Below, one piece after another: positions 3,788 to 41,371 of a stretch of 50,912 nucleotides of DNA. The position numbers and the translations under genes are program-made. The stretch lies in IMG/VR virus record IMGVR_UViG_3300037137_001575, positions 1 through 50,912 of that record; one strand, written 5' to 3'. This stretch comes from a virus. The notes under the pieces were generated by a model. The model had not been told where the DNA came from. It made no database searches and worked only from the letters and a program-made list of their open reading frames with translations. How positions within the stretch are numbered: the first letter of the stretch is position 1; the number at the start of each line of letters is the position of its first letter.

Positions 3788-4846
3788 TTACTTTTTCTTT
3801 ACTTGTGAAGCATGATGGGCAGCCCATTCTGCAAAGTTACTTCCTAAAATACCAACTTTAGCCTGTGGTGCAAAACCTACTTCACCTGGCTGTGGCTCAT
3901 TATCCTGAGCAGCTTGCTTCTGTGGCTGAATAAGAACATCTTCGGTAACAGAAACCCAATAACCATATTCATCCTGCTGGAACTTAAGAGAGCCAGCCTG
4001 ACGCATTAAACTGTCATTAAATTCTCGCTGTTCCTTGGTCATCTTGCAGCACTTCTTGCTCTTTTTCATGCCTTTACCGCACTTAGAGCAGCAAGAGTCA
4101 TTAAGACCATCTGCCTTATTCTGAGCCTTCATCTTTTCATCTTGCTCATCAGCAACTTCTCTTACGAAGGTGGTCTTCTTTTGAGCAGTACCCTTACCGT
4201 CATCCTTTTGATCGTTAGCGGCATTCTTTCTATTCTGACCCTTCATCTTGGAATCCTGTGGGTCTGCTGCTGCTTCTTTCTTCATATACATAGCTTTTGG
4301 TTGCATTGAACCCATGCCGCTCATCTTCTTCATCATCATAGGAGGCTTCTTTTTCATAGGTGGGCCACCAAGACCGCCCGCCATGTCAGGACCACCCATA
4401 GGGCCACCCATACCTGGAGGTGGGCTACCTGCACCCATAGGGCCACCCATACCCCCATCATCACCCATGCCGTCGCCCTCTTCGCCGCCTTCTTCGTCGC
4501 CTTCGCCGCCTTCTTCGTCGCCTTCGCCGCCTTCTTCGTCGCCTTCGCCGCCCATGTCTTCATCACCTGTATCATCAGCGTCTTCGTCATCGCCCATGTC
4601 GGTGTCACCCATGTCTTCGCCTTCGTCATCGTGTGGATGATCTTCGTCATCCATATCGTCGTCAGGACCGCCCATGCCTGGGGCTGACTTCTTAGCCAAG
4701 CCAGGAGGTACATCTCCCTTCATATACTTGTGCATCATTAGCTGTGGAGCTTCCGAAAGACCAAGATTGGTCGGCCTTGAAAGACCGATCACACTGTCAA
4801 AGTTTTCTTGGATAAGTTTATACTGCTTATAAGATAACATGCCCAT
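3788..4846 (-). CDS. acidic Gly/Met-rich protein with capsid-targeting-like N-terminus
   Basis: 352 residues from ATG 4846. This start is chosen because GGAG lies nine bases upstream; an ATG at 4861 contains that GGAG. The N-terminus MGMLSYKQYKLIQE resembles the aromatic capsid-targeting sequences of T4 internal proteins. Residues of roughly 65-170 are low complexity: Asp/Glu/Gly with three EGDEEGG repeats, then Pro/Met/Gly. A Cys cluster (CCSKCGKGMKKSKKCC) follows, and the C-terminal 80 residues look folded. Possibly a scaffold or internal head protein, by inference. A terminator follows. Confidence 0.6.
   Translation of the reverse strand: MGMLSYKQYKLIQENFDSVIGLSRPTNLGLSEAPQLMMHKYMKGDVPPGLAKKSAPGMGGPDDDMDDEDHPHDDEGEDMGDTDMGDDEDADDTGDEDMGGEGDEEGGEGDEEGGEGDEEGGEEGDGMGDDGGMGGPMGAGSPPPGMGGPMGGPDMAGGLGGPPMKKKPPMMMKKMSGMGSMQPKAMYMKKEAAADPQDSKMKGQNRKNAANDQKDDGKGTAQKKTTFVREVADEQDEKMKAQNKADGLNDSCCSKCGKGMKKSKKCCKMTKEQREFNDSLMRQAGSLKFQQDEYGYWVSVTEDVLIQPQKQAAQDNEPQPGEVGFAPQAKVGILGSNFAEWAAHHASQVKKK
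4477..4553. repeat. 21-bp tandem repeat in the acidic-protein gene
   Basis: Three to four in-frame copies of a 21-base unit encode EGDEEGG repeats. It is a coding minisatellite and could vary in copy number by slippage. Confidence 0.8.
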
Positions 4847-4897
4847 AATTTTAATCTCCATTAATTGAATTATCTATGCTTCTGATCCTATTTATTT

Positions 4898-5107
4898 TCA
4901 AGGTCTTGCTAAAGCTTTTAATAATTGTTCTCTTTTTAGTCTTTCTACCTTTCTACGTTCGTCAGCTATCTTCTGAATGTTTTGCATTTGCAGAACATTA
5001 GGATGCAATTTAGCTACATTTTCGGTTATTTTTCCAGTTGCAGGCGGCAGTCTTGGAGCCGCTGCTTGGCGTCTCGCACCGCCACCACCACCACATCCAC
5101 ATCCCAT
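4898..5107 (-). CDS. small Gly/Cys-rich-headed protein
   Basis: 69 residues. The N-terminus is MGCGCGGGGG, followed by Ala/Pro-rich sequence and a charged, probably helical C-terminus (IADERRKVERLKREQLLKAL). A strong GGAGGG precedes the ATG, and CATATATATTAC lies about 16 bases further upstream, a candidate late promoter. No family recognised. The Cys-Gly head could bind metal or be lipid-modified, but neither can be shown. Confidence 0.6.
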   Translation of the reverse strand: MGCGCGGGGGARRQAAAPRLPPATGKITENVAKLHPNVLQMQNIQKIADERRKVERLKREQLLKALARP

Positions 5108-5145
5108 AGTACCCTCCTTGTAATATATATGGGAGTCAATAAAAA

Positions 5146-5171
5146 AACCACAGCAACGAATTGCTGTGGTT
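5146..5171 (-). terminator. intrinsic terminator
   Basis: Stem AACCACAGCAA with TTGCTGTGGTT and a four-base loop. On the minus strand it is followed by a run of T, so it ends the transcript of the gene at 5191-5430. Confidence 0.85.
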
Positions 5172-5190
5172 AAGAAGAAGTAAAAAACCT

Positions 5191-5430
5191 TTAGTGTCGA
5201 GTTGTTTTCTTTGCGGCGAATCTCTTAGGTTCTACAAAGTTAAGAGTCGCGTTATACTTCTTTGCAACCGCTACCGCAGCTTGCCTTAAGTTAGAGACGG
5301 TTGTATAGTGAGTACCACCACTTTCCTTCCTCAACTTGTTTTGGGTCAAATTCGGCATTCGAACCGACCCTTCAAAGCTATTCACGTTTGGATTAGCTTG
5401 AATTGCTGTGACTGTCATTACTGGTTTCAT
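5191..5430 (-). CDS. small basic hypothetical protein
   Basis: 79 residues, basic, with an Ala/Val-rich helix (LRQAAVAVAKKYNATLNFV) and a Lys/Arg C-terminus. GGAG lies about eight bases before the ATG, and a terminator follows the stop, so it is a complete single-gene unit. The spacer to its divergent neighbour contains AAGGTTTATTGAAATT, which recurs at 12932. No homolog recognised. Confidence 0.55.
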   Translation of the reverse strand: MKPVMTVTAIQANPNVNSFEGSVRMPNLTQNKLRKESGGTHYTTVSNLRQAAVAVAKKYNATLNFVEPKRFAAKKTTRH

Positions 5431-5464
5431 AATAATTTCTCCTCAGTACATTCACAATAATATC

Positions 5465-5480
5465 AAGGTTTATTGAAATT
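5465..5480. promoter_or_regulatory. 16-base element in divergent spacer (copy 1)
   Basis: AAGGTTTATTGAAATT. The same sequence with one mismatch stands in the divergent spacer at 12932-12947. Both sit upstream of a minus-strand unit and may be a shared promoter or operator; this is inference from two copies. Confidence 0.3.
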
Positions 5481-5519
5481 GTCAATAGATTTTTTCTCCA
5501 CAAAATTGAAGGGTTAGGT

Positions 5520-5527
5520 CTATATAA
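5520..5527 (+). promoter_or_regulatory. candidate late promoter (CTATATAA)
   Basis: CTATATAA lies about 28 bases upstream of the ATG at 5556. It resembles the T4 late promoter octamer TATAAATA recognised by gp55-type sigma factors, one of which is encoded in this window. In an AT-rich genome chance matches are expected. Confidence 0.35.
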
Positions 5528-5555
5528 TAATAAGATTGATCTTAATGGGAGAATT

Positions 5556-5780
5556 ATGGTAACAACATTCATGCAATGGTGCGAATCAAATAAAAGAGAT
5601 TTGAGCTTTGTATTTACAGAAAAAGGGTCTAGAACTGGCCTTCACTACCCAATGCCAACAGGTTATTACATGGCTCACTACCCACACAAATATTTTAACC
5701 CTATTATCGCAACGGCTGATTTAGATGTTAAGAACTTCGGTCAGTACCAAGACAAAGCACCTAGCGACGAGGCACCTTAA
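5556..5780 (+). CDS. small protein with capsid-targeting-like N-terminus
   Basis: 74 residues beginning MVTTFMQWCESNKRD, one of the recurring Met-aromatic-xx-aromatic starts in this window. The rest is Tyr/His/Pro-rich with no recognised domain. It is a monocistronic unit: GGGAGA stands upstream, and a strong terminator follows directly. By analogy with T4 internal proteins it may be packaged in the head; unproven. Confidence 0.6.
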   Translation: MVTTFMQWCESNKRDLSFVFTEKGSRTGLHYPMPTGYYMAHYPHKYFNPIIATADLDVKNFGQYQDKAPSDEAP

Positions 5781-5788
5781 AGCTAATG

Positions 5789-5815
5789 AAAAAGCCACCT
5801 TCGGGTGGCTTTTTT
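5789..5815. terminator. bidirectional intrinsic terminator
   Basis: Stem AAAAAGCCACC / GGTGGCTTTTT with a TTCG tetraloop and T-run, lying between convergent genes. It can serve both. Confidence 0.9.
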
Positions 5816-5816
5816 G

Positions 5817-6317
5817 TTAGCTTTCATGAAATTCTCTAAGTTCTTGCTGGTAAGCCATGTAGCCTTGACCGTGGCCTAAATCACTAAGTCTCGATGATTG
5901 CAGTAATTCTTCACTTTTCATAAACCCACGAAATGTATACTTAGGGAAAACACCAGTCATCAATGCAAAAATATCGACGTTCGTTTTCTTCCACGGAGCA
6001 GCTAACAACTTACCAGTTTCGTATTTTGTGGTTTTAACATCCACCTTTTTTTCATGCAAGGTGCCATCGCCATCATCATTTCCTTGAAATGCTGATCTGA
6101 CGGCAATAGAAAGATCAGGATAGATATTGAACAGTTTACAGAACGCAAACTCTCCACTGATCCCTTCAAGATCAGTAAACTCATCAGATTGAGAACCAAT
6201 CTTGGAGTTCTTTACGCCAGAGTTTCTGGCGTTTTCATATCGCATTTTTGCCAATTGTTTGCAAATAGCTTTTTCTACCGTATTAAGTTCTATTACGGTG
6301 CCAATTTTATTACTCAT
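5817..6317 (-). CDS. probable PD-(D/E)xK-type nuclease-like protein
   Basis: 166 residues. The segment GISGEFAFCKLFNIYPDL, followed by KKVDVKTTKYETGKLL, fits the layout of PD-(D/E)xK-fold phage proteins: a Glu in the first helix, then Asp-x-Lys (DVK) on the core strand. The catalytic acidic residue before it would be one of the Asp in NDDGDG. No specific function can be named. It converges on the gene at 5556 across a shared terminator. A nuclease role is inferred from motif layout only. Confidence 0.45.
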   Translation of the reverse strand: MSNKIGTVIELNTVEKAICKQLAKMRYENARNSGVKNSKIGSQSDEFTDLEGISGEFAFCKLFNIYPDLSIAVRSAFQGNDDGDGTLHEKKVDVKTTKYETGKLLAAPWKKTNVDIFALMTGVFPKYTFRGFMKSEELLQSSRLSDLGHGQGYMAYQQELREFHES

Positions 6318-6359
6318 TACATGAGTTTACAGTGTATGTCAGTTAATTACAAGTCCATT

Positions 6360-6677
6360 TTATTTCTTTTTCATTCTATTTTTCTGATCTTTAGCTACAA
6401 TGCTTTGATAATTTTTCGGGAGCATATCCACGGGGATACGTTCCCAATAGCCCCAATTATCATCATTCTTTGGATGTTGATAAACCATATTCATTTTTAA
6501 ATACTTATCTATAATCTCTTCAACTCTTTCTTTGGTTAGTCCAGTGTCCTGCGCAATTCCAGAAGTAGATCGCCAGACATATTTTGGACTACGGGCAAGT
6601 GAAATAAAGAAGGCTAGTTCTTCATCCCCTTCTTTGGTTCCAAGCGAATATATGTCGGTCCAACGCTTTAATTTCAT
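6360..6677 (-). CDS. small winged-helix-like protein
   Basis: 105 residues. The central region (GIAQDTGLTKERVEEIIDKYLKMNMVY) has the pattern of a winged helix: a helix, a turn after Gly-Leu-Thr, a recognition helix, then an aromatic strand. The C-terminus is Lys-rich. GGAATA lies just upstream of the ATG. Probably a DNA-binding regulator; it is divergent from the gene at 6753, with a 75-base AT-rich spacer between them. Confidence 0.45.
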   Translation of the reverse strand: MKLKRWTDIYSLGTKEGDEELAFFISLARSPKYVWRSTSGIAQDTGLTKERVEEIIDKYLKMNMVYQHPKNDDNWGYWERIPVDMLPKNYQSIVAKDQKNRMKKK

Positions 6678-6715
6678 ATTTATATTCCTTTTAGTTTAAA
6701 ATCGAATCTAAACTA

Positions 6716-6725
6716 TTATATATAT
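6716..6725 (+). promoter_or_regulatory. candidate late promoter (TTATATATAT)
   Basis: An AT octamer of the TATATAT type, about 28 bases upstream of the ATG at 6753 in the divergent spacer. The resemblance to a gp55-type promoter is inferred. Confidence 0.3.
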
Positions 6726-6752
6726 GCAGGTTAAATTAGTAAAGGCTATAAT

Positions 6753-7226: not shown

Positions 7227-7238
7227 GCTCAATACAAT

Positions 7239-7268
7239 AAAAAAAGCCAGGTTAACCTGGCTTTTTTT
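7239..7268. terminator. bidirectional intrinsic terminator
   Basis: Stem AAAAAGCCAGG / CCTGGCTTTTT around TTAA, with A and T runs on both sides. It lies between convergent genes. Confidence 0.9.
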
Positions 7269-7281
7269 ATTTAAGTTTTAA

Positions 7282-7980: not shown

Positions 7981-8033
7981 ATGCCTCCAATTGTAAGACT
8001 AACCTATATATCCTTAATTAAGCAAAATTTTCA

Positions 8034-15615: not shown

Positions 15616-15781
15616 TAAAGTCCATATAACAGGAAAGCCTGAGGACGTATTTACGATAGCTGAGGTTGTCTGCCCAAATTTCTATAGTCTTAATGAAGAG
15701 GAAATTGCCCATTTCTATCTTATGAAAGATAATTATGAAAATATTTATTTTGGCACAGATTTAGTCCAAGTTTCTATATAA
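15593..15781 (+). CDS. small hypothetical protein
   Basis: 62 residues from ATG 15593 (MKQYTVGDKVHITG). The gene overlaps the last 23 bases of the glycosylase gene. The pattern YTVGDKVHITGKPEDVFTIAEV resembles a small SH3-like or KOW-type beta barrel, a form common in phage modulators. No function can be named. Confidence 0.55.
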   Translation: MKQYTVGDKVHITGKPEDVFTIAEVVCPNFYSLNEEEIAHFYLMKDNYENIYFGTDLVQVSI

Positions 15782-15785: not shown

Positions 15786-16049
15786 ATGAAAACATGGACT
15801 AAATTTCTAGAAGATAAGCAAAATGAAGCGGACGCAATGGCTCCTCAGCAGCCACCAGGCACGGGCGGTTTTGGAGCGGGTGTACAACCAGCAGTTACCA
15901 CTCGTAGAAAAGCAATGTTAGCTCCTCAGCAGCCACCAACGGCAGGCACGGGTGGTTACGGCCCTAATGACCAAAGAGCAGCCTTAGCTGCGCAGCAACA
16001 GGCAGCAGCCGTAGCAGCACAACAACAAAGAATGGGTCAGCGTGTTTAA
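15786..16049 (+). CDS. Gln/Ala/Pro-rich protein with capsid-targeting-like N-terminus
   Basis: 87 residues. It begins MKTWTKFLEDKQNEAD, close to the T4 internal-protein leader in pattern. The rest is low complexity with two APQQPP blocks, Gly-rich turns and a Gln/Ala tract. AAGG lies just upstream, next to a CTATATA element at 15774. It converges on the Nudix gene, overlapping its end by four bases. It may be an internal head protein by analogy. Confidence 0.6.
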   Translation: MKTWTKFLEDKQNEADAMAPQQPPGTGGFGAGVQPAVTTRRKAMLAPQQPPTAGTGGYGPNDQRAALAAQQQAAAVAAQQQRMGQRV

Positions 16050-16459
16050 AGTTTACTAATCCATTCACTGAACGAGTGATTATTTTTTTCAATGGCCCGA
16101 AGATATTTAGGCCATTCTTTTTTGAAATTAGGGTGTAGTTTATAGTCTTCCACTTTATCTAAATCTACCCACTCAGACTTGGTATGTTCGTGATTTAGTT
16201 TAACATCAAATGGTTTATTAACCTTGAAAATATACATTACAAAGGGATCACCAACAAATTGCGCCACCTTCCTACCTTTTACAGAGCCTATTTCTTCTTG
16301 GGCTTCCCGTTTCGCAGTTTGAAAAAGACTCTCTCCATCTTCCATCCCGCCACCTGCGCAAGCCCAAGTAAAAGGATGCTCTCTGGTATCTTTTGAACGA
16401 TAGAGAAGCAAGACTTTTTTGCCATCTGTGTGTAAAATTCCAGCACCTAGATGTTTCAT
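16046..16459 (-). CDS. Nudix hydrolase
   Basis: 137 residues. The Nudix box is complete: G37, E43, then REAQEEIGS (R51, E52, E55, E56, G58), which binds the metal and hydrolyses nucleoside diphosphates linked to another moiety. The substrate cannot be told from sequence; dNTP or NADH sanitising, or RNA cap removal, are all known for phage Nudix enzymes. Its start overlaps the preceding stop as TAATG, so it follows the gene at 16459-16971 in one transcript. Confidence 0.9.
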   Translation of the reverse strand: MKHLGAGILHTDGKKVLLLYRSKDTREHPFTWACAGGGMEDGESLFQTAKREAQEEIGSVKGRKVAQFVGDPFVMYIFKVNKPFDVKLNHEHTKSEWVDLDKVEDYKLHPNFKKEWPKYLRAIEKNNHSFSEWISKL

Positions 16460-16971
16460 TAACCTTTTGGACCTCTCTTTAATGGGACTGGTTTGAGTTT
16501 TTCAAGGTGGCGATCAGGCTTGCTTTTCAGATCATGCATCATATTATACACTTGTTTGGTAATTTCGAAAGCATTTTCGCCCTTGCACTTCTCACTTGCT
16601 TGAACACTTATTGTGTTGCGGTCTTTATTATAAAAGCCTTTTGAAATAACAAAACATTTGTGTTCATGATTCCAGGTAACGACAACCACCCATTCACCAT
16701 CATCCCAATTTCTGCTGGATACCAATATACGAATAGGTTTGTCGGTATAAACATGCTTGACGTGGAAGTTGTGTTGTTTGATTCCAGCAGAAACATATCC
16801 CAAAGCTATTTTAGCAAAAGAGTCTAAAACTTCGTCTGGTTTTGAACGGAAATTTACTTCAACGCTATAGCGAGTTGAGTCTGCGGTTTCTGTCAAATCT
16901 ATGAATGGCCGTACCATGACAAGAAACTCGCCTGCTTCTGGTTCACTAAAATAATCTTTGAAGTTTAGCAT
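16459..16971 (-). CDS. hypothetical protein with capsid-targeting-like N-terminus
   Basis: 170 residues beginning MLNFKDYFSEPEAGEF, matching the recurrent aromatic leader with a Ser-Glu that could serve as a protease site. The body alternates beta strands (GEWVVVVTWNHEHKCFVISKGF) with helices. The C-terminus is basic (KPVPLKRGPKG). No domain recognised. It is coupled to the Nudix gene. Confidence 0.55.
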   Translation of the reverse strand: MLNFKDYFSEPEAGEFLVMVRPFIDLTETADSTRYSVEVNFRSKPDEVLDSFAKIALGYVSAGIKQHNFHVKHVYTDKPIRILVSSRNWDDGEWVVVVTWNHEHKCFVISKGFYNKDRNTISVQASEKCKGENAFEITKQVYNMMHDLKSKPDRHLEKLKPVPLKRGPKG

Positions 16972-16991
16972 ATCTTAGTTATATATATGGT

Positions 16992-17414: not shown

Positions 17415-18323
17415 TCAGTCCATAGTTATTATGCCTTGAGGACCGTCGCCCCAGCGCCAAATCAAATCTTCACGCCACTTCTGCAATCCTTCTTTAGCTT
17501 CTTGAAGTAATGCTGGACCGTCTAACTGTAGACCACCAGCAGGACCAGGAATATTGGTCCACTTGCCACGAATTCTACCAAGGATAGTCATTGCGTGATA
17601 ATATGCGCCTTCAATCATAACGGTTGTAACTCGCTTAAAGTCAGGCAGTTTAGGAAGATAATGGACCATCACTGAATGGCAACGGCAAGGAGTAGGATAG
17701 AGTTTAATGTTGCAATAACCATCAACCCACTCCCATCCGCCTAATTGACTTGCTAATCGGTTATACATTTGTTCGTACTGCTTATAAAGAACCCATTCGC
17801 CTGCATGTCCGTAAATGGGCGTATTCGGGTCCATTAAACCGCCTTGGATGGATGAATAGCTGCCACCTGGATAATAATACTCAATAGGGAGTACACCGCC
17901 TAGATCAGAAGCGTTAAAAGTAAGTTGTGGTTGTTCGCGGTAATAAACCATACGAATGAAACCAACGTCGGGCGGCATAGTATACACGCTCTTGCCTGGC
18001 TGTGTGTTAAATACATAGTATGTGAAGTGTTCACGGCCAGCGAATTCTTCAAACTCCAGTAACGCTAATTCTACCGCAGCATCGAGATTTTGTTCATTTA
18101 GTTCTATTTTAACTACAGGCGCACCAAGCCTTAAAAGAACTAAGTCTTTAATTTGCTCAATAATTTTTTCTCGGCAGGGTCGCTTACCTATCTTGCCACA
18201 GCAACCAGCAGGAGGTGCTATTAAGCCATTATCTGTGCATCCACCATTGGCACAACAGGCGTTTGCTGCTTGCTGAGAAGGTCGATTAAGAAAGAGGGTG
18301 TTATTACTACATACAGTTGACAT
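17415..18323 (-). CDS. neck-protein-like (T4 gp13-type candidate)
   Basis: 302 residues from ATG 18323 (MSTVCSNN); an upstream in-frame start at 18350 would add nine. After a Cys-rich head it has KDLVLLRLGAPVVKIELNEQ and LDAAVELALLEFEEF, a block found in neck or connector proteins of T4-like cyanophages. Further on, YHAMTILGRIRGKW and a segment with LDGPALLQEAKEGLQKWRED match the C-terminal part of the same proteins. It likely helps close the head or join head to tail. The gene runs opposite to the rest of the tail module. Confidence 0.5.
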   Translation of the reverse strand: MSTVCSNNTLFLNRPSQQAANACCANGGCTDNGLIAPPAGCCGKIGKRPCREKIIEQIKDLVLLRLGAPVVKIELNEQNLDAAVELALLEFEEFAGREHFTYYVFNTQPGKSVYTMPPDVGFIRMVYYREQPQLTFNASDLGGVLPIEYYYPGGSYSSIQGGLMDPNTPIYGHAGEWVLYKQYEQMYNRLASQLGGWEWVDGYCNIKLYPTPCRCHSVMVHYLPKLPDFKRVTTVMIEGAYYHAMTILGRIRGKWTNIPGPAGGLQLDGPALLQEAKEGLQKWREDLIWRWGDGPQGIITMD

Positions 18324-18392
18324 AAGTGTATTTATCCAAACCAATGTCAAAACTTGAGATGTGTTAATATATATTTAAAAGGTAAAGAAGCC

Positions 18393-21300
18393 ATGAGATT
18401 TAGTCAATATGTAAACGACAATTTGGACTGGAAGGAATATTGCCATTCCCTAGCAATTGCTGCTCAAGCGAGAGTTACCCGTTTGGTAGAAATGGCGATG
18501 GGTACACAAGAAATTAATGACCCAAAACAGATGATCTTCCATGACGCAGACGACTACAAGTTTTTAAGTCAGTTTCCATATCAAGTTGGTACGAACGCAA
18601 TCTGGACAGCAGCCCTTAACTGGAGATACAACCAGGGTTTGAGAGAAATGATGAGAAAATCAAAAAGTTTAACTCACATTCCTCAAGGCAAAGATTGGAC
18701 TAATCATCTTGTTATTCCTTTAGGGAATGGGAAGCACTTTATTCTCGGTAGTCCAAATAATCCAGAACAAACCGATCCAAACCATCAACAGAATATTTTC
18801 ATTGGGCTAACTCGCTTGGCACACAAGCTTACAAAGCCAGCGAAAGGTGATCCTGATAGTTTCACGAGCGATCCAGAGCATCCAGAGGAACCAACTAAAC
18901 CTCACCCACATTGGGCAGGGCGGGGTCCAAGTTTGCAAGAAATTGATCCTAAACAAACCGATCCAAACCATCATCAACACACAAAGAACTACAGACATGG
19001 TTTGTACAATTTTGACTTGAGTGACATGGCAGAAGTTACTGACGAAGATATTGATGAAATTCCAGATGTAGAAATACAGCAATGGCTAGATTACCCTCTT
19101 ACTGAATATCCAGTCAATGCTCCACAAGTTCAAGAGGCAATTAAGAAAGAGCGCGCAAAAATGAGAAAGGTTAAAAAGCACACTTTCTCAGGATACGATG
19201 TGCCACAGAAAGAAGTCACTGCAACAAACATATCTGACTGGATAACCGCGAATTCAATGCCAACCACGACGGGCAAGCCTGGTGTTGGGTTGTTTGGGGA
19301 ACACCCAACAGAGTATAGAGACACGCTAAACGTAGATGAGAAAACTGGCCATCCTCAAAATTATAAGGTCCATTACTTGAATCCACAAGAAGCAGGTAAA
19401 GCAGAAGAAGCGTATCTCGTTCATGCAACCGCACCGAAGAGTGGCTGGGAGTTCAGCGCGGATTATTTCCCCCACAAAGTTTATGATAAGGAAGAGGCGC
19501 GCGGACTGGCTAAAAAAGCTAGAGACAAAGGCGCTACCAAAGTCAAGGTGGAGAAAATCCAAAGTGGTACTAATGTTGGTCACTTCTTAAGCAAAGCTGA
19601 TACGGAAACTGGAGAGCAGAGCAGAAAACACAGCATACCAGTTATTACTAAGCACATGCAGTTCTCTATTATTGATGAAAAACATCAGGACAAGGAGGGC
19701 AACGCCAAAAAGACAAACTACGATCAGGATTACACAATCCCTGTTCTTAACCCTCAAAAAGCTATACCGCAGTTGCCAGGACAACCTAAGAGAGTATCAA
19801 AGAAGGGTGGACAAGAAGCAGAAGCCGTTGAACCAACTCCTGAGGAATTAGAACAAGAAAGAGAAGAGTTGGCACTAAGCAAAGAAGATTTTAGTGCGCT
19901 AAGATTATCAGATGTACAACAGGCTGAATTTGCGCGTAGAACCAAGCGCAAGAGCGGCGGCGTCTTTGACTGGAATCCTGCGGTTGAAAGAAAAGAACAA
20001 GCCAAGAAAAGATTTGGCACAGATGGGGCTGCGTTCATTAACGCAACCAGACCAGGAACATTACAGAGATTTTTAAACAATTGGGATATATTGACCCCAC
20101 AGCAGCAAGAATGGATTGAAAAGAACATGAAAACTGCGCATGACGTAGCAAAGTACGTCCATTCAGGTGACAAAAGTGACAAACTTGCAAAACCACAAAA
20201 TTTATATGGAGCCGCACCACGACCAAATTACAAGTCAGTAGCGCAGGGCAACCTACAGGTGCCGCCAAGTAAGATGGAAGACTTTCTTAAGAAGTATAAG
20301 GGAAAAGTCTATTCAGAACTTATGGGTGACTGGACGCCTGACACTGGACAAGGGTATCAAAGTAATTCTCCAATGGAGAGATATCTTCGTGGAATGGCGG
20401 CAACTGGTAAGATTCCAGCCCAAGTAGTTATGGCTTTAAGAGATAATTTGGATAAATTAGCAGAATTTGCTACTTATAACATCCTTACTTTCCTTAATGA
20501 CAAACGATTTGCATTCGGGCAGGATGAGGAATTTAACTTGCTCAACAATGTTCGTGATCCAGACATAAATGAGGATGAAAACAGAGAGAGACGATTGGAA
20601 AAAGGTAAAGTGTTCCTTTGGAATGCTGGTGCAATTGGCATGAAAGACTCAATTTCTAGAAGAAACAGAGAAAAGCATGGAGTTCATACAGTTGGTGATA
20701 TTGATGCGCCAACCAAAAGTGGGAAAAGCGGTGCAGGAGAAGTCGCTGAAGGATCACAAAAAGACAGAATTCAACACATTAATTTACATGCTACCAGACG
20801 TTGGCTTAATTCTGACCACGGGACCGAAGAAGAAAAGGAAGACGTATCACCATTCGCCCGTGCAGGACACAAAGTACATACAGGTATTGTGCAAACCTCA
20901 AAAGCACCTGAGTTCTTCAGAATGAGAAGAAACCAAATTTTAGCTAAATTGGGCGGCTCACCTACAGCCGCAGCAGCGTTAAATTCGGCTCAAAAGAAGC
21001 TTACTGATGGCATGGAAATAGCTATTGAAGTATATAACAAATACGACACAGACCTTGCTTCAAGTATTCCTGATGCGAAGAAGCGAGAAGCAGCGGTTCT
21101 TCAGCATGTTCACGATGCTTTGAAGCAGGGTGGCACCTACACTGATAGAGAAGTAGAAGATATTGCACAAAGAGCAAGAACATTGGCAACTGCTGATAAA
21201 CCATCTGAGTATGATAACTACATCAGGCGCGAAATGGATGCCTTTATGGATAAGTTTATTAAAACAGATGAACCTATGTCTGTGCCACACTACAACCCAA

Positions 21301-21917
21301 TGTCTAATGAAATTGAAGAAACTCCAACAAAGTTAAGTCCAGCAATATTGCATCCAGACCCAAGAATGGCAGCTATCTTTATCAAAGGTTTGTATGTATA
21401 CAACAACTTGACAAGAGAAGCATTAAAGAAATGGGGATATCAACTCTATGATGCAATAGTAAACAGCCATAACATAGATAAGAGGGAGGAAAAGGTCCGC
21501 GAAGAGTGGGAAACAGAAGAACAGAAGCAATTAGCTGGCTTGGCTGGCCCAGGTACTACCCAAGCACAAGAGAAACCATCGACGCCAGGCCCACAGCGAT
21601 TGTCTCCACAGCAACAGCAGGCACAAAGTCAAGCTGATGCTGCAAGACTTATGGCAGAACCATTGCCAACATTGCTTAGCATGGCTAACTCGATTAGCAA
21701 CTTAGATGATATGGTAAGACTTGGATCAGCGTTATTAGGCAAGCGCAAAGATTTAATGGCAATGCCAGGGTCGGCCCATGTATTGCAAACTGCACTCACT
21801 ACGTTAAGGCAGCGTAGAATGAAGTTCATGCACGAACCATCTACGTCAGAGGAAACGGAGCTATTCCTTAGACAGTTGCCAGCTTTGGTTAAAGAACTTG
21901 GCCAGGCGCACCAGTAA
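18393..21917 (+). CDS. giant probable internal virion protein
   Basis: 1,174 residues from ATG 18393 (MRFSQYVNDNLDWKEY); an in-frame ATG at 18354 lies upstream of the AAAAGGTAAAG ribosome binding site, so it is not chosen. The leader belongs to the aromatic set. Two copies of a QTDPNHxQ block (near residues 129 and 189) flank Pro/His-rich sequence. The rest is mostly charged and helical with a Gln/Pro-rich segment near residue 1040. No enzyme motif recognised. Size, leader and place next to the neck gene suggest a protein packaged in the head or ejected with DNA; this is inference. Confidence 0.55.
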   Translation: MRFSQYVNDNLDWKEYCHSLAIAAQARVTRLVEMAMGTQEINDPKQMIFHDADDYKFLSQFPYQVGTNAIWTAALNWRYNQGLREMMRKSKSLTHIPQGKDWTNHLVIPLGNGKHFILGSPNNPEQTDPNHQQNIFIGLTRLAHKLTKPAKGDPDSFTSDPEHPEEPTKPHPHWAGRGPSLQEIDPKQTDPNHHQHTKNYRHGLYNFDLSDMAEVTDEDIDEIPDVEIQQWLDYPLTEYPVNAPQVQEAIKKERAKMRKVKKHTFSGYDVPQKEVTATNISDWITANSMPTTTGKPGVGLFGEHPTEYRDTLNVDEKTGHPQNYKVHYLNPQEAGKAEEAYLVHATAPKSGWEFSADYFPHKVYDKEEARGLAKKARDKGATKVKVEKIQSGTNVGHFLSKADTETGEQSRKHSIPVITKHMQFSIIDEKHQDKEGNAKKTNYDQDYTIPVLNPQKAIPQLPGQPKRVSKKGGQEAEAVEPTPEELEQEREELALSKEDFSALRLSDVQQAEFARRTKRKSGGVFDWNPAVERKEQAKKRFGTDGAAFINATRPGTLQRFLNNWDILTPQQQEWIEKNMKTAHDVAKYVHSGDKSDKLAKPQNLYGAAPRPNYKSVAQGNLQVPPSKMEDFLKKYKGKVYSELMGDWTPDTGQGYQSNSPMERYLRGMAATGKIPAQVVMALRDNLDKLAEFATYNILTFLNDKRFAFGQDEEFNLLNNVRDPDINEDENRERRLEKGKVFLWNAGAIGMKDSISRRNREKHGVHTVGDIDAPTKSGKSGAGEVAEGSQKDRIQHINLHATRRWLNSDHGTEEEKEDVSPFARAGHKVHTGIVQTSKAPEFFRMRRNQILAKLGGSPTAAAALNSAQKKLTDGMEIAIEVYNKYDTDLASSIPDAKKREAAVLQHVHDALKQGGTYTDREVEDIAQRARTLATADKPSEYDNYIRREMDAFMDKFIKTDEPMSVPHYNPMSNEIEETPTKLSPAILHPDPRMAAIFIKGLYVYNNLTREALKKWGYQLYDAIVNSHNIDKREEKVREEWETEEQKQLAGLAGPGTTQAQEKPSTPGPQRLSPQQQQAQSQADAARLMAEPLPTLLSMANSISNLDDMVRLGSALLGKRKDLMAMPGSAHVLQTALTTLRQRRMKFMHEPSTSEETELFLRQLPALVKELGQAHQ

Positions 21918-23541: not shown

Positions 23542-23568
23542 CTCAAATAGTTATTGGAGATATTAATT

Positions 23569-24624
23569 ATGACAAATATGAAAGACGTAAACACGGAGAA
23601 GTCATTGGTAGACTGTAATCCGCGTGATGGTATAAATCCAGATAACATCGACCCTGTACCAAAGATGTGCGATGACGATTGTTGGCCATCGCAAAAGCGT
23701 GTTCCAGTTCAACCGCCCAAGGATTGGAACAGGAGAAAGACTTTCAACAAGCTTGGTTTAGGTCAACATTGGCTTTGTGACCCGATCCAAACAGGCCAAA
23801 TCATTAATGATCTGGATACACCGAACCGAGACGTAATTTATCGTTACTCAAGATCAATTCGGGCATGTGATGAAGCGATGCTCGATATGTTTCGCAACGT
23901 TATGGTTTTAGATGAGCAAGGCAAGCAGCACACGGTTCCTATCATATGGGCAAGCCAGGAGAAAGCTGTTGCAGCTATTCTCCAAGATAATGTGAGAAAA
24001 GACAATTCGCTTGTTGTGGATCGCATTAGGTTGCCAATTATATCTATCTGGAATAGTGGAATGCAGTTCGATCAAAGCCGCTTCACTTATCAAAAAGCAT
24101 ATACTTTGCTGCCGTGGCTAAGTCAAGATGGTAAATCGCCAGGTTTTACCAAACAGGAAAAATACATCAAGGATACGTTCTTCGGTGTTACACGGGGTAT
24201 TCCAGTAAATATAAGTTATACACTATATATGTGGACCCTTTATGAAGAGGACATGAATCAAATACTAGAGCAAGCGTTTCAGAAGTTCTCTCCAATTGCA
24301 CAATTGCAGATAAAGGGTATTTGGTGGGATGTAATTGTTACTTTAGATAGCACTACAAATAACATTGATCTAGAGCCTGGGGATGCCAAAGTTAGAGTTC
24401 TAAAGTATCAATTTAATATGACGGTAAAAAGCTATATCGCCCAGCCTATTTATAGGATTAAAAAACTTCCAGAAAGCATTTGTGAAGAACGTGATCCAAT
24501 GGAAGAAAAAGACCCGAATGAGGAAAACGATAGGCCAGACTTCATGACAGATGAAGAAATTAGCAACTCAATTGAGGAATTAAAGAAAAGTGTAATGGAA
24601 CTAGAAGAATCAATGAAGAAGTAA
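23569..24624 (+). CDS. tail sheath stabiliser / terminator, gp15-like
   Basis: 351 residues from ATG 23569, with GGAGA eight bases upstream. After a Cys/Pro-rich head it shows the gp15 pattern: YSRSIRACDEAMLDMFRNV, then VPIIWASQEKAVAAIL, LPIISIWNSGMQFDQSR, NISYTLYMWTLYEEDMNQIL, and a late beta segment. T4 gp15 caps the sheath and tube end that joins the neck. The C-terminus adds an acidic helix (Glu-rich, 50 residues) not expected from T4. It directly precedes the sheath gene, the same order as in T4. Confidence 0.7.
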   Translation: MTNMKDVNTEKSLVDCNPRDGINPDNIDPVPKMCDDDCWPSQKRVPVQPPKDWNRRKTFNKLGLGQHWLCDPIQTGQIINDLDTPNRDVIYRYSRSIRACDEAMLDMFRNVMVLDEQGKQHTVPIIWASQEKAVAAILQDNVRKDNSLVVDRIRLPIISIWNSGMQFDQSRFTYQKAYTLLPWLSQDGKSPGFTKQEKYIKDTFFGVTRGIPVNISYTLYMWTLYEEDMNQILEQAFQKFSPIAQLQIKGIWWDVIVTLDSTTNNIDLEPGDAKVRVLKYQFNMTVKSYIAQPIYRIKKLPESICEERDPMEEKDPNEENDRPDFMTDEEISNSIEELKKSVMELEESMKK

Positions 24625-27652: not shown

Positions 27653-28183
27653 TTACCCTTTTACAACATAATTATTAGTATTTTGCGGTTTGTGTCTCAG
27701 TAAAACCTTCTCCACTTGGTTTTGTAGGAAGTCGTGATACTTTTTCTTAAGTTCATTATAATTTCGAGCGGTTCGATAGAGTTGTCTGTAGTGATTAAGA
27801 ATACAAGTTGTCATGTAATTGAATGCTTTACCTTTCTGTGGGTCAAAACGATCTATTTTCTCAAAACAAATCATTACTCCTTCTTGGATAGCATCATCTA
27901 TATCAATGAGATTAAACTTAGCATACCTTACTATGTTTTCCGACAATGTAAGGAAAGCGAGAGCCAACTGTTGTTGAGCGTCAATATAAGCTGTACTGGC
28001 AAACTTATACATATTTGAAAATCTGTCTAATCGTAGGATGAAATCCACACAATCATTGCCGCGATTAATCGCGCCTTGCAAATCTTCAATACAAATCTCA
28101 TATTTGCTCTTTTCCCTCTTGGACTGTTGAAATCTGGCAATAACTTCTTCAAAAATCTTGTTATTTAAATACTCCGTACTCAA
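27653..28183 (-). CDS. late-gene sigma factor, T4 gp55-like
   Basis: 176 residues with a TTG start, supported by AAGGAG five bases upstream. The centre (residues about 75-145) holds sigma region 2: LALAFLTLSENIVRYAKF, DIDDAIQEGVMICFEKIDRFDP, GKAFNYMTTCILNHYRQLYRT. This matches the -10-reading helix pair of gp55, a reduced sigma that reads only TATAAATA-like octamers. The protein would divert host RNA polymerase to late phage promoters. AT octamers of this kind stand before many genes here. Confidence 0.75.
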   Translation of the reverse strand: MSTEYLNNKIFEEVIARFQQSKREKSKYEICIEDLQGAINRGNDCVDFILRLDRFSNMYKFASTAYIDAQQQLALAFLTLSENIVRYAKFNLIDIDDAIQEGVMICFEKIDRFDPQKGKAFNYMTTCILNHYRQLYRTARNYNELKKKYHDFLQNQVEKVLLRHKPQNTNNYVVKG

Positions 28184-37294: not shown

Positions 37295-38538
37295 TGATTA
37301 CTCATGCCGAATGGATGGAGATTAGTCTTGCCCTAGAAGATCACCATGCCATATTCTATGAATTATGGCACATGGGTCGTCCATTCTTTACTGATGACAT
37401 TGAAACCGCTGCCGTCCGTTTTGCGGGTGATAGCGGTGAATTCGTTGAATTCCTATTCAACCCCGAATATTGGAACAACCTCACCCCTTACGAACGCCTG
37501 TTTGTGATCTCCCATGAATGCCTGCACGTCATTTTAAATCACGGTATCCGAACCACAAAAGGCAAGGATGCACCACGAATCAATACGGCGCTGGATATCG
37601 TCGTGAATCATCTGTTGGTAAATGCATTCGGGTTTGACCGTTCACGAATCAGGGATGAAGACGTGCTGTGCTGGACGGACACAACTTTCAAGGATGATCC
37701 CAAAATGGCCGAGATACCAACAAACGAATCGTATGAATATTATTATCAGAAAATACCAGAGTCAATGGTAATTGATGTCTTCACAATTGACGATCATTCC
37801 TTCCTGAATGGGGAAGTAGATACCATTATAGACAAATTGGACAGCAGACTTACCCAAGAAGAAAAAGGTACTATTAAAGACGTAATTAAAAAACATTACG
37901 CTAAAGAGAAAACGGAATATGAGGACGAACGCGGTGGGTACGGTTGTGGCCACTGGTCTTTCATTAACGTAGCTCCAGTTACAGCGAAAAAAAAATGGGA
38001 GACGGTGATATTCAAATGGAGTCAGAAGTACATGCGGGCGGGGCTGGATGAACACGAACAGTGGGCGCGAGTGGCTCGCCGCTTTGAATTGCTGCCTCAA
38101 GAAATCATCCTGCCAAGCGAAATGGAAGATGAATCAAAGGACTTTGATCGTATACCTATCCATTTGTACATGGACACATCTGGTTCTTGTGTAAAATACA
38201 AGGACCGATTTTTTCGAGCGGCTATGTCCTTACCAAAGGACAGATTCGTGGTAAGATTGTTTTGTTTCGACGTTGCGGTTCACGAAACAACGCTTGTCTC
38301 CCGTAAAATTTACGGTGGAGGTGGCACTTGTTTCGATATTATTGAACAGAACGTTCAGAAGGTCATGAAGGCGGAAAAATCCGCCTATCCAGAAGCTGTT
38401 TTCTTAATTACAGATGGGAAGGGAAGTCCTGTTGTGCCAAAATTTCCTGAACGTTGGCACTGGTTCATGACTAGGAATGCTTCATCTGCTTACATTCCAG
38501 ACAAAAGCAAAACCTACAAACTCGACAACTTTGAATAG
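37294..38538 (+). CDS. metallopeptidase-like plus VWA domain protein, MoxR partner
   Basis: 414 residues. The N-terminal domain has the zinc motif HECLH (74-78) followed by NH and ALDIVVNHLLV, as in the putative metallopeptidase domain DUF2201. The C-terminal VWA-like domain has a MIDAS: DTSGS (294-298), GGGGTCFD (T345), LITDGKG (D374). Start overlaps the ATPase stop, so a fixed ratio is likely. Such ATPase/VWA pairs occur in bacteria and phages without settled function. Confidence 0.8.
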   Translation: MITHAEWMEISLALEDHHAIFYELWHMGRPFFTDDIETAAVRFAGDSGEFVEFLFNPEYWNNLTPYERLFVISHECLHVILNHGIRTTKGKDAPRINTALDIVVNHLLVNAFGFDRSRIRDEDVLCWTDTTFKDDPKMAEIPTNESYEYYYQKIPESMVIDVFTIDDHSFLNGEVDTIIDKLDSRLTQEEKGTIKDVIKKHYAKEKTEYEDERGGYGCGHWSFINVAPVTAKKKWETVIFKWSQKYMRAGLDEHEQWARVARRFELLPQEIILPSEMEDESKDFDRIPIHLYMDTSGSCVKYKDRFFRAAMSLPKDRFVVRLFCFDVAVHETTLVSRKIYGGGGTCFDIIEQNVQKVMKAEKSAYPEAVFLITDGKGSPVVPKFPERWHWFMTRNASSAYIPDKSKTYKLDNFE

Positions 38539-38547
38539 GAGGGAATG

Positions 38548-39126
38548 ATGGGTCGCGTTACAGCCAGAGGCAACCGATTTGACAGCATTGCAAACCAAAT
38601 GATGAAGGGGTGCAACGGCAAAGTTAAGGCCAACAACGTTGCTGGAACCCAGCAAGAAATGGATGACTTCAAGAGAGTTTATAACGACACAATAACTTAT
38701 CTTGAAAATACATTGCCAAAGGATTTGAGTGTGGCTGTCTGTGGCGCACTTGGCAAGGCAATCCTTTGGCATGGTAAGAAAACCATGCACCCGTTTGTAG
38801 AAGCGGTTGCAAGGCGTGAATTCAAAGGTCATGGCGATCCATGCCTGGCACTGTGGGAATGGCTTGTTCGATATAACAAACGTAATAACACGGAAGAAAT
38901 TTACCGTCGAACCGTCACGGCCATTCGTATCTTTTTGCGCAGTGGAACCTTCAAAGGTCATTTGAAACCTGCCCTGGACGACTTTTTTGAGTGGCAGAGT
39001 AATTATCGCGTTATGTGTCAGCCAAAAAGGAATCAGGTTGGTACAAGTCTAAAATCACCAACGAAACAATCCGATGAAGCGATCTTGGCCGACGTGGAAG
39101 ATGCGCTCAGTGGTTCACCTACTTAA
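38548..39126 (+). CDS. stand-alone copy of the ParB-like protein's C-terminal domain
   Basis: 192 residues from ATG 38548, with GGAGG five to six bases upstream; ATG 38545 is too near. The core matches the C-terminal domain of the gene at 34443: GALGKAILWHG, HPFVEAV, FKGHGDPCLALWEWL, IYRRTVTAIRIFL, DDFFEW. It lacks the ParB-like part. The gene directly follows the VWA gene, so the domain appears at both ends of one cluster. It may be an adaptor or a regulator of the ParB-like protein. Confidence 0.7.
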   Translation: MGRVTARGNRFDSIANQMMKGCNGKVKANNVAGTQQEMDDFKRVYNDTITYLENTLPKDLSVAVCGALGKAILWHGKKTMHPFVEAVARREFKGHGDPCLALWEWLVRYNKRNNTEEIYRRTVTAIRIFLRSGTFKGHLKPALDDFFEWQSNYRVMCQPKRNQVGTSLKSPTKQSDEAILADVEDALSGSPT

Positions 39127-39149
39127 AATTTACAGAATGTTACTGTAAT

Positions 39150-39175
39150 AGTAATGAGGACAACCCCTCATTACT
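39150..39175 (+). promoter_or_regulatory. 10-bp perfect hairpin just before the bS21-like start
   Basis: AGTAATGAGG pairs fully with CCTCATTACT around a six-base loop. It ends two bases before the ATG and buries the only purine-rich GAGG. It could control translation of the bS21-like gene, or end the upstream transcript. Confidence 0.6.
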
Positions 39176-39177
39176 AA

Positions 39178-39405
39178 ATGGCAAATATAGTTAGGTTAAG
39201 AGTAGAGCGTAAGGATGGACCTGACGCTTTCAAAAACATGCTCAAAGCATGGAAACGACAAAAGAAATGGATTGATAAGGAACACAAAATTCATAGTTCC
39301 TTTGAAACTGAATCCCAAAAGAAACGACGCCGACGAAGGCGAAACTGGATTAAGAAACAACAAGAATTAAACTGTAAACCAGAAAGCGTTATCCTCCTTG
39401 AGTAA
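39178..39405 (+). CDS. rpsU: probable ribosomal protein bS21
   Basis: 75 residues, very basic. Layout fits bS21: a first strand with VRLRVERKDGPDAF, a helix NMLKAWKRQKKWI, the aromatic F near SSFETESQKKRRRRRR, then a basic helix. Length (bS21 is about 70) agrees. bS21 genes are known from several large phages, where they may replace the host protein in the small subunit and bias initiation. Similarity is by pattern, so another basic protein is possible. The 3' end overlaps the converging nuclease gene by 39 bases. Confidence 0.55.
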   Translation: MANIVRLRVERKDGPDAFKNMLKAWKRQKKWIDKEHKIHSSFETESQKKRRRRRRNWIKKQQELNCKPESVILLE

Positions 39406-39921
39406 CTTATCAAGATGAACAATCGCCCAATCTTTATAAATTAAGAGATAATCCCATTCTCTGAGGACCAGTGCGCCTTCTGCGTGGAACTTGGGCAAGT
39501 GTTCTATTTTCAAAATGGCAAGCAATGGCTTGCGGGACTTCTTCCACACAACCATCGGTTTACGTTTACAGCGGTCGGCATCAAATTGTGCTTGCTCCAA
39601 GAATTCATTAATTTGTGAATGGCCACCGTCAAATACGGATACCAAATCAACGTCGTCGTAACCGCCCTTACTTTCAATCGTGAAACCAAAATTTTCAGGG
39701 GTAACTAAATCACCTGAAAAAGTATCCTGTGCGTGCTTCGGCAAGTTAGCGACCTGGGACCAGCGATTACCTGACCCTACTGACCTGGAAAATCCACCTC
39801 CAAATCGGTCATTAAATACTTTCGCCACTTCACGTTCACGTCGCTTACCTTTACGGCCTGTGTTTAATTTCTTTTTCTTTGGCATAAGAAAACTGTCTTC
39901 TACAAAAAAATCTTCATCCAT
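39367..39921 (-). CDS. PD-(D/E)xK endonuclease, Holliday-junction-resolvase-like
   Basis: 184 residues; a later ATG at residue 13 (MPKKKKLNTGRKGK) is also possible. It has GRKGKRREREVAKVFNDRFGG, FSRSVGSGNR, GDLVTPENFGFTIESKGGY, where the Asp in GDL and E-S-K give the D...ExK core, and a C-terminal strand set. This is the form of phage resolvase-like nucleases. It would cut branched DNA in recombination or packaging, in agreement with the gp46-like gene. Exact substrate is inferred. Confidence 0.65.
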   Translation of the reverse strand: MDEDFFVEDSFLMPKKKKLNTGRKGKRREREVAKVFNDRFGGGFSRSVGSGNRWSQVANLPKHAQDTFSGDLVTPENFGFTIESKGGYDDVDLVSVFDGGHSQINEFLEQAQFDADRCKRKPMVVWKKSRKPLLAILKIEHLPKFHAEGALVLREWDYLLIYKDWAIVHLDKLLKEDNAFWFTV

Positions 39922-39968
39922 ATGAAGTTATTTAGTAAATATAACCAATATTAAAAGGTTTGTCAATC

Positions 39969-39976
39969 TATAAATA
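39969..39976 (+). promoter_or_regulatory. exact T4 late promoter octamer TATAAATA
   Basis: TATAAATA ends five bases before the GTG of the DUF1003 gene. It equals the T4 gp55 recognition octamer. The distance would leave no untranslated leader, so its use is uncertain. Confidence 0.35.
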
Positions 39977-39980
39977 ACAA

Positions 39981-40472
39981 GTGGTGCAAAATGATGATAG
40001 GACATTCGGAGAAAGAGTAGCAGATGACGTAGCGACCTTCGCAGGATCGTGGAAGTTCATCATTTTGTTCGGCGCTATACTTGCGTGCTGGGTTGTGTTC
40101 AACTCATTGGATGTAACTAAACCATATCATTTTGACCAATTCCCCTTCATCTTGCTTAATTTGCTTCTGAGCTTTGTGGCCGCATTTCAGGCTCCATTCA
40201 TTATGATGAGCCAAAATAGATCAGAAAAGAAGCAAGATATAGCCTACCGTGCTATTTTCATAGAATTGAAAGAGCTAGTAGAACAGGATATAGCCCACGA
40301 AGAAGAGATTAAAGGGCTAGAAAGACAAATACAGACAGATTTGGAAAGATTAATAGCCACGCAAAATAAATTGCTGGAAGCTCTCAGTCAAGCAATTAAG
40401 TTAGGACAGATGACCAGTGAAGGCGTTGCAGAAGTATTGGAACACCTAGAAGATGAGACTACCGAGCAGTAA
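39981..40472 (+). CDS. DUF1003 membrane protein
   Basis: 163 residues with a GTG start (a second GTG follows). The block GERVADDVATFAGSWKFIILFG, then FPFILLNLLLSFVAAFQAPFIMMSQNR and a Lys/Glu helix, are the features of DUF1003, with two membrane helices. No Shine-Dalgarno sequence is visible. The role of the family is unknown; a phage copy may alter the host inner membrane. Converges with the next gene over 14 bases. Confidence 0.8.
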   Translation: MVQNDDRTFGERVADDVATFAGSWKFIILFGAILACWVVFNSLDVTKPYHFDQFPFILLNLLLSFVAAFQAPFIMMSQNRSEKKQDIAYRAIFIELKELVEQDIAHEEEIKGLERQIQTDLERLIATQNKLLEALSQAIKLGQMTSEGVAEVLEHLEDETTEQ

Positions 40473-40896
40473 TTTCTTCTTGAAGCCACTTATCTAATCT
40501 TTTGAACGCACCTGGAAAACTTCGCTTCGTAAAATAAGAGTCTATGACTTTATACATGTCATCATAGTCCATTTTTACTTCCTCGAAGCTGGGCTTCTCC
40601 ATTTTCCCAAACACACTCTCCAGCAATTTCATAGCTTCTGCTACTTCCTTATTACTTTTCTTTTTCTTGCGACTGCCCATATCCTGATAATATAGATCGT
40701 CCCAATATTTAGGGAAAACTATACCCGCTAATGTACTATCCATATATCTTAGTTGATGGAGAAGACCACAACTGCAAAACGGATGCTGAGCAGAGTAAAT
40801 TTCACAATCCCCATAGTGAAGGAATTGCTTTCTTGACTCAACCCAATACCGCTTAATTAGAATGCCTAATTTATGTACCTCTGAGGTAATTCGCAT
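40459..40896 (-). CDS. hypothetical protein with Cys cluster
   Basis: 145 residues from ATG 40896, one base after the upstream stop; longer in-frame readings run through that gene. It has CSCG in an aromatic region (YSAQHPFCSCGLLHQLRYMD), then a charged, Lys-rich helical half. No family recognised. Co-transcribed with the gene at 40898. Confidence 0.5.
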   Translation of the reverse strand: MRITSEVHKLGILIKRYWVESRKQFLHYGDCEIYSAQHPFCSCGLLHQLRYMDSTLAGIVFPKYWDDLYYQDMGSRKKKKSNKEVAEAMKLLESVFGKMEKPSFEEVKMDYDDMYKVIDSYFTKRSFPGAFKRLDKWLQEEITAR

Positions 40897-40897
40897 A

Positions 40898-41371
40898 TTA
40901 TTGTCCCAATGATCCCATATCAGCCATTTGCTGATTGATTGGTGGACTCTGCGGTTCAGGTGGCGGGCCTTCTTCCTTTGCGCCAGGTGGCGGGCCTTCG
41001 GGCCGCTTTGGAGTCTCTTCCTTGCCTGTACCAAGCTTATTAGCAGGTACGCGGAGTTGATGACTTAATTTTTCCAATTCTGCACGAACACTGTTGAACA
41101 CATCAGGCAAATCACCTTTATCCTCGATGGCCTTCATCAAAGCAACGCCACACTGCTGCAACACCTTGAGGTATTTATGCTCAGATCGTGGCCAGCTAGT
41201 ATGAAGGACTTTGCGAATTTGATTTGCAACATCTTCTGCACTCCTTACCATCTGCTTTGCACCCATTTGTTTTTTGGCTGCAAGCAATTCATGAATGCCC
41301 GTAAGTATATTATTGACTCTATTAGCGAAATACTCTTTCTGTTCTGTAAGTAAAAAACTCTTAAATTTCAT
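40898..41371 (-). CDS. helical protein with capsid-targeting-like N-terminus
   Basis: 157 residues beginning MKFKSFLLTEQKEYF, the closest here to the T4 internal-protein leader ending in hydrophobic-Thr-Glu. The centre is helical (LAAKKQMGAKQMVRSAEDVANQI) and the C-terminal 45 residues are Pro/Glu/Gly-rich (APRPPPG-like repeats). No family recognised. It follows CTP synthase by four bases in the same direction, so belongs to that transcript. Confidence 0.6.
   Translation of the reverse strand: MKFKSFLLTEQKEYFANRVNNILTGIHELLAAKKQMGAKQMVRSAEDVANQIRKVLHTSWPRSEHKYLKVLQQCGVALMKAIEDKGDLPDVFNSVRAELEKLSHQLRVPANKLGTGKEETPKRPEGPPPGAKEEGPPPEPQSPPINQQMADMGSLGQ

Follow-up and report, generated by a model that had tools for sequence, protein, structure and literature searches.

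A short aromatic N-terminal leader on many unrelated proteins of a huge T4-related phage, probably a capsid-targeting sequence

The internal proteins IPI to IPIII of phage T4 carry a capsid-targeting sequence (Mullaney and Black 1996, as described in PMC3012670 and PMC9958956; also PMC12373910), and at least ten internal proteins have been reported over the T4 relatives (PMC12373910). In the giant phages SPN3US and phiKZ head propeptides are cut after Glu by the prohead protease and many proteins are packaged, although only eight N-terminal-propeptide substrates are known in SPN3US, most with propeptides of 111-254 residues and two with 20-24 (PMC5694885, PMC10052503). These papers form the relevant earlier literature, and no earlier report of a leader of this kind in huge phages was found in the open-licence literature. 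Here such a leader is described in a 50,912-base stretch of viral DNA (IMG/VR record IMGVR_UViG_3300037137_001575, below the window), part of the genome of a huge phage related to T4, and in its relatives. The only near match of the window among phage records was LR756511.1 (595,163 bases, uncultured phage; below LR756511), with near-complete synteny. An initial annotation of the window had listed eight or nine otherwise unrelated proteins with similar aromatic N-termini and had compared them with IPI to IPIII. From the sequence evidence given below we consider it highly probable that a T4-type capsid-targeting leader is used across the genome, together with a late promoter and cleavage by an S77 protease, for cargo that would be injected.

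Frequency of the leader and its likeness to T4 leaders

Genes and their start codons were taken from a simple codon and ribosome-site model blind to the motif, and the leader profile was trained solely on those LR756511 genes that lie beyond the block syntenic with the window, the window being held out. A mixture model restricted to aromatic pairs replaced an unconstrained one, which had drifted into general N-terminal composition; the plain aromatic-x-x-aromatic pattern was rejected as too loose (105 N-termini in LR756511 versus 47 expected). At a threshold of at least 10 bits 59 of the 1061 LR756511 genes were found, versus 0.45 expected from shuffling of residues 2-20 (maximum 2 in 100 shuffles) and 0.4 from an internal-methionine control. 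In the window 7 of 67 genes reached at least 6 bits (0.25 expected from N-terminal shuffling, maximum 3 in 1000), and in related phages, where 54 loci were located via the neck adaptor, 98 genes reached at least 10 bits (0.5 expected). Four further large contigs contained 21-31 leader genes each at 8 bits or more versus 0.2-1.0 expected, the related contigs being of unknown completeness; the yardstick at this threshold was 2 for T4, 3 for Pelagibacter phage HTVC008M and 2 for cyanophage S-PM2. The full profile thus exceeded the shuffled and internal-methionine controls about 100-fold, confirming that the leader pattern is real and beyond chance; the genome-wide scan proposed in the initial annotation, carried out in the relative LR756511, therefore came out in favour of the pattern.

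The similar N-termini listed in the initial annotation are present at their places, and its clear members were recovered by the held-out profile; its coordinates are the low ends of open reading frames (ORFs), 3252, 3788, 16459 and 40898 lying on the minus strand. The count of eight or nine understated the extent, LR756511 having about 60 leader genes. The Met-aromatic-aromatic pattern was upheld and refined to M, 1-4 residues, F (less often W or Y), x, [EQD], [W/F/Y], [L/F/V/I], often E, and then hydrophobic-x-Glu.

When applied to T4, which it had never been shown, the profile ranked gp61.1, IPI, IPII and IPIII at positions 1, 2, 7 and 8 of 259 genes. The assignment of the leader to the T4 capsid-targeting kind is well supported by this comparison, and the likeness to IPI to IPIII proposed at the outset was thereby borne out. 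In both systems proteins with nothing else in common start with an M-x-x-[F/Y]-x-x-F leader and have a hydrophobic-x-Glu site, and a gp21-type protease is encoded, in the present case by the relatives. T4, however, has three internal proteins and Alt, whereas LR756511 has its dozens in one genome; unlike the T4 internal proteins, the huge-phage leaders commonly have Trp as the second aromatic residue, a promoter almost on the start codon and enzyme-sized cargo.

Two T4 genes deserve mention in their own right. The best leader match in T4, gp61.1 (MKTFKEFIKEDMVAGDSGG; record L077, 18966-19130, minus strand), may be a further internal protein of T4 that has escaped recognition. The gene 57B (record L078, 23952-24410, minus strand), which adjoins ipI, begins MMEFKDFSTG, a weak leader-like start of 4.9 bits; we take its product to be the Acb1 protein acting against the cyclic-oligonucleotide-based antiphage signalling system.

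The leader behaves as a module. By their mature parts 327 leader proteins fell into 197 unrelated clusters, 140 of them singletons, and some relatives of leader proteins are entirely without it. The HAD phosphatase has a leader in LR756511 (582920) and none in contig G012 (22679); the C39 peptidase has one in LR756511 (429897) and none in G001 (105356). The NUDIX protein of the window lacks it, and its counterparts in L044, L056 and L066 carry it (PF00293 on L044 and L056).

16046..16459, minus strand: NUDIX protein without leader (PF00293, 1.7e-16)

Outside the counted set, a SpoVR protein of LR756511 (3.9e-98; 343529, that is L007 43529-45142, minus strand) begins MSYSRFMRGSALLEGG, which is leader-like with LLE/G (a slash marks a candidate cut here and below). 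The leader proteins of the window are as follows.

3252..3557, minus strand: MENFREWFDD..., 101 residues, helix-turn-helix-like region; 14.4 bits; start at 3557 rather than 3650
3788..4846, minus strand: acidic weak-leader protein MGMLSYKQYKLIQE/N...; profile only -0.8 to -4.0; leader kept in the LR756511 orthologue, MISYKQWKILSE/N
5556..5780, plus strand: MVTTFMQWCESNK..., 74 residues, candidate cut FTE/K; 14.9 bits
15786..16049, plus strand: MKTWTKFLE/D..., 87 residues, Pro/Gln-rich; 6.0 bits, at threshold
16459..16971, minus strand: MLNFKDYFSE...LTE/TADST-RYSVEVNF, conserved domain of unknown function; 8.3 bits
16992..17339, plus strand: MVVTFRQWLKDKELHE/L..., 115 residues; 16.0 bits, held out; LxE kept in relatives
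18393..21917, plus strand: MRFSQYVNDN..., 1174 residues; 6.5 bits; LR756511 orthologue MLLKFKEFLDN, 11.2 bits
21927..22076, plus strand: MKLSFKEWFKKVTE/MVGTSAIVG, 49 residues; 15.3 bits
40898..41371, minus strand: MKFKSFLLTE/QKEY..., 157 residues; 9.7 bits

The suggestion that 3252 joins the set if started at 3557 was confirmed: this start is very likely correct given its 14.4 bits, an LR756511 orthologue starting MDGFKEFFAEN and a TAAATA box 5 nucleotides upstream. Protein 3788 was kept as a weak member because its LR756511 orthologue starts alike (MISYKQWKILSEN versus MGMLSYKQYKLIQEN in the window). At the place of 16992 LR756511 has a gene starting MKTFMQWLDDKRLTE/I, with no tblastn match between the two at 1e-3, and the relatives of 40898 start MEFKKFLITE/QKEY in LR756511 and MDFKEFLLLE/QRAY in G007. 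Pfam and PHROG scans of the window leader proteins gave no function, only a weak helix-turn-helix or sigma-r4-like match for 3252 and sub-threshold domains of unknown function for 18393 and 40898; the predicted structure of 16459, an ordered domain with a predicted local distance difference test score (pLDDT) of 77, gave no hit with E<=0.001 when compared with PDB and viral libraries. Tyr-Pro-rich tails (YPPLY, LYPxxY) are common to small leader proteins, namely 5556-5780 of the window, 71311, 502604 and 588507 of LR756511 and 136128 of G007.

Promoter-like box, prohead protease and candidate cleavage site

A TANATA box ending at most 20 nucleotides from the start codon was present in 48 of the 61 LR756511 leader genes (79%) versus 88 of 979 others (9%; Fisher p about 2e-34), most commonly at a spacing of 4-5 nucleotides. 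The box reads [A/C]TAAATA-A and no other conserved element was seen around it. A Shine-Dalgarno sequence was found in 33% of the leader genes of this phage versus 59% of its other genes, and an oppositely oriented upstream neighbour in 30 of 61 versus 162 of 999. Such boxes also precede presumably late neck and tail genes whose proteins have no leader, so that the box would be a mark of late genes in general and the leader that of a subset. The initial annotation had missed the box, and this promoter half of the pattern is an addition to it. In the window the following boxes were found.

3563..3568, minus strand: TAAATA box, 5 nucleotides from the ATG at 3557
15775..15780, plus strand: TATATA box, 5 nucleotides from the ATG of 15786
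16980..16987, no strand assigned: TATATATA in a 20-bp intergenic gap, common to the divergent leader genes 16459 (minus) and 16992 (plus)
18368..18373, plus strand: TATATA box, 19 nucleotides from the ATG of 18393
41377..41382, minus strand: TACATA box, 5 nucleotides from the ATG of 40898

The same divergent arrangement is seen in LR756511 between 473239 (minus) and 473554 (plus). Genes 5556 and 3788 have a Shine-Dalgarno sequence instead of a box, and 21927 has no box. The T4 late promoter (gp55) is a TATAAATA box with no -35 element; the huge-phage box resembles it and a gp55-like sigma factor is encoded in the window, but in leader genes the box usually lies 4-5 nucleotides from the start codon, and many of these genes lack a Shine-Dalgarno sequence. 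If the box is a -10 element, the transcripts would begin on the ATG itself or one or two bases from it and would be leaderless late mRNAs.

The search for a gp21-like protease proposed in the initial annotation gave a positive result: LR756511 encodes a prohead protease (PF03420 Peptidase_S77, 6.7e-28) whose best PDB match is the T4 protease 5jbl (1.7e-18), and S77 matches were obtained in 9 of 14 related contigs, those without one being partial records. In the alignment to T4 gp21 (GELNHP, GVSSRG) LR756511 and three relatives keep GELDHP and SSRG, and the protease of a fourth relative, G014, has SSLDHP and STRG; the conserved His and Ser of these motifs we take to be catalytic. LR756511 also encodes a T4-type portal (531014-533587; PF07230, 1.2e-74) and a gp23 capsid protein (PF07068, 5e-87); its head genes run portal, protease, coiled scaffold candidate, capsid, as T4 genes 20-21-22-23 do. 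With this portal, protease and capsid protein, LR756511 is predicted to have a T4-type head. Contig G001, with an adaptor 91% identical, likewise includes head genes. A second, more distant S77-like protein of 297 residues (3.5e-9) lies far from the head genes at LR756511 242240 (L005 42240-43133, minus strand).

The strongest evidence for processing, although not proof of cutting, is the placement of the candidate site in the 16459 family, where each of the 34 distinct relatives has hydrophobic-x-Glu directly before the conserved domain (RYS); shuffling gave 5.9 on average and no more than 15 in 5000 trials. What precedes the domain varies otherwise, with lengths from 8 to 56 residues, the residue after Glu (P1') is mostly Ala, Ser or Gly, and in the predicted structure residues 11-33 and 35-37 are disordered and the domain is confident from about residue 45. 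In the 5556 family all 8 of the relatives that were anchored have the candidate cut directly before the RTG/RAG domain, and over LR756511 a hydrophobic-x-Glu site is near in 55 of 61 leaders versus 32 shuffled. Most relatives of 21927 have, by eye, a leader and an x-x-Glu/[M/V/D]xG boundary; the anchored expression used for that family, which scored 7 of 21, proved too narrow, and no number is claimed. For T4 IPI the 95-residue ORF and the mature form of 76 residues (PMC3012670) indicate a cut after ...TITE19. The arrangement of an N-terminal segment and a candidate Glu cut site is of the same kind as in SPN3US and phiKZ, but the present group has a common short leader on dozens of proteins, and the long propeptides of 111-254 residues are not matched by the stretch preceding the 16459 domain.

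Other contents of the window

The window covers the neck and tail part of the genome, with gp13-like adaptor, gp15-like stabilizer and sheath-, tube- and hub-like proteins.

17415..18350, minus strand: T4 gp13-like neck or head-tail adaptor (phrog_211, 1.2e-9; T4 gp13 by phmmer, 8.2e-5)
23554..24624, plus strand: T4 gp15-like tail sheath stabilizer (phrog_227, 2.4e-20)
27653..28183, minus strand: gp55-like late sigma factor (phrog_234 late sigma transcription factor, 3.9e-7)

Protein 18393 was considered as a portal and ruled out, the portal of LR756511 lying elsewhere (531014-533587). The 914-residue protein at 45213-47957 is probably the large subunit of ribonucleotide reductase. Its LR756511 counterpart is split, residues 3-80 matching about 1.1 kb from the remainder with a further out-of-order match between the two parts, which suggests that the counterpart carries an insertion.

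Cargo, alternative explanations and implications

Leader proteins of LR756511 include a tRNA nucleotidyltransferase (580680; PF01743, 9.8e-26; PHROG, 2e-42), the RNA-repair HAD domain at 582920 (1.6e-15), a tRNA-ligase phosphodiesterase domain (411779; also G001 76074) and the C39/C70-like peptidase at 429897. In the relatives the leader was found on a P-loop kinase of the zeta-toxin/polynucleotide-kinase type (G001 90749), a RelA/SpoT-like protein (G014 490246), DnaJ and an SNF2-type helicase (L036), a NUDIX domain and, clearly, a 2H phosphoesterase with an Acb1 match (G007 262132; PF13563, 1.3e-11; PF23474, 3e-9). ADP-ribosyltransferase-like leader proteins recur below threshold (PARP, 1.8e-4; DUF3990, 3.4e-6); a single-sequence model of the one in L036 reached a pLDDT of 36 and was not used. 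T4 Alt is annotated as a packaged ADP-ribosyltransferase, and these weak matches, below curated cut-offs, would be the same kind of cargo, but sequence similarity of Alt to the leader proteins is undetectable and the leader of Alt itself departs from the F..W type; T4 57B, Alt and the internal proteins gave no phmmer match to the leader proteins. Since Alt is packaged and T4 Ip1-3 block restriction enzymes (PMC12373910), the cargo mix fits, by analogy, injected counter-defence and repair proteins.

In the mechanism proposed, leader genes would be transcribed late from the TANATA promoter almost on the start codon, and each protein would attach to the core of the prohead by its first 10-25 residues (M..F..W..). 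The S77 (gp21-like) protease would then cut after hydrophobic-x-Glu, freeing the mature protein inside the head, and the cargo would be delivered into the bacterium along with the DNA, many of its members probably acting there against host defence or in the repair of RNA. We infer docking, cleavage, packaging and injection from the features described above.

Several observations weigh against this mechanism. The profile missed the T4 Alt leader (MELITELFDE); 18393 lacks a clear cut site; the P1 residue of 3252 is Asp in the window, with Glu in its orthologues; and no head gene, prohead protease included, lies within the 50.9 kb of the window, which for the protease is explained by the window being a fragment. 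False high scorers also occur, namely an L032 sulfatase whose domain begins at residue 7, a G014 NADAR protein and window protein 37294 (MITHAEWME), one of the seven at 6 bits or more, which was set aside as probably false, the first aromatic being absent and the start of its LR756511 orthologue different. That the whole pattern reflects chance or N-terminal composition (start-codon context, low complexity) has a negligible probability: the bare aromatic pair is indeed common, but this explanation is already refuted by the profile counts, held-out data included, and by the 34/34 site placement in the 16459 family.

Short N-terminal tags can have many targets, and the destination set by the leader might be some other phage-built site, for instance a replication compartment or the cell membrane, and not the head. 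This is very improbable, the likeness to T4 internal-protein leaders, the late-promoter link, the gp21-type cut site before a domain and the T4-type protease and head genes all pointing to the prohead. Moreover, the leader has an amphipathic, charged character and none of the long hydrophobic stretch that forms the core of a secretion signal; with K/R/N and E/Q/D separating its aromatics and Glu following, it did not resemble that type by eye, no dedicated signal predictor having been used. A less remote but still unlikely explanation is that the leader proteins are virion proteins, mostly fixed parts of head or tail rather than injected effectors. It would suit 16459, 16992, 18393 and 21927, which lie in the neck and tail region with synteny kept across many contigs, and the size of 18393; most leader genes, however, are scattered, their mature parts are unrelated, and many have enzyme domains unexpected in shell parts.

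If the prohead-targeting mechanism is true, the virion cargo of uncultured huge phages would be readable from sequence alone, many hypothetical genes would gain hints of function, and the known injected T4-type proteins would be extended from a few to dozens per genome. According to a 2026 review, Tad1 is the sole anti-defence protein described in jumbo phages (PMC13282480); against Tad1 alone, an Acb1-like phosphoesterase, a tRNA nucleotidyltransferase, an RNA-repair HAD phosphatase and a cyclic-phosphodiesterase-like protein carry the leader here. The leader may also offer a means of bringing proteins into large phage heads. We lean slightly towards the further view that leaderless late promoter, targeting leader and protease site form a mobile cassette in this huge-phage group, able to turn any gene into head cargo, with some 60 injected proteins per virion acting in RNA repair, anti-signalling and ADP-ribosylation or as chaperone and helicase. 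Were this so, the injected repertoire of these phages would be about as broad as the effector sets of bacterial secretion systems.

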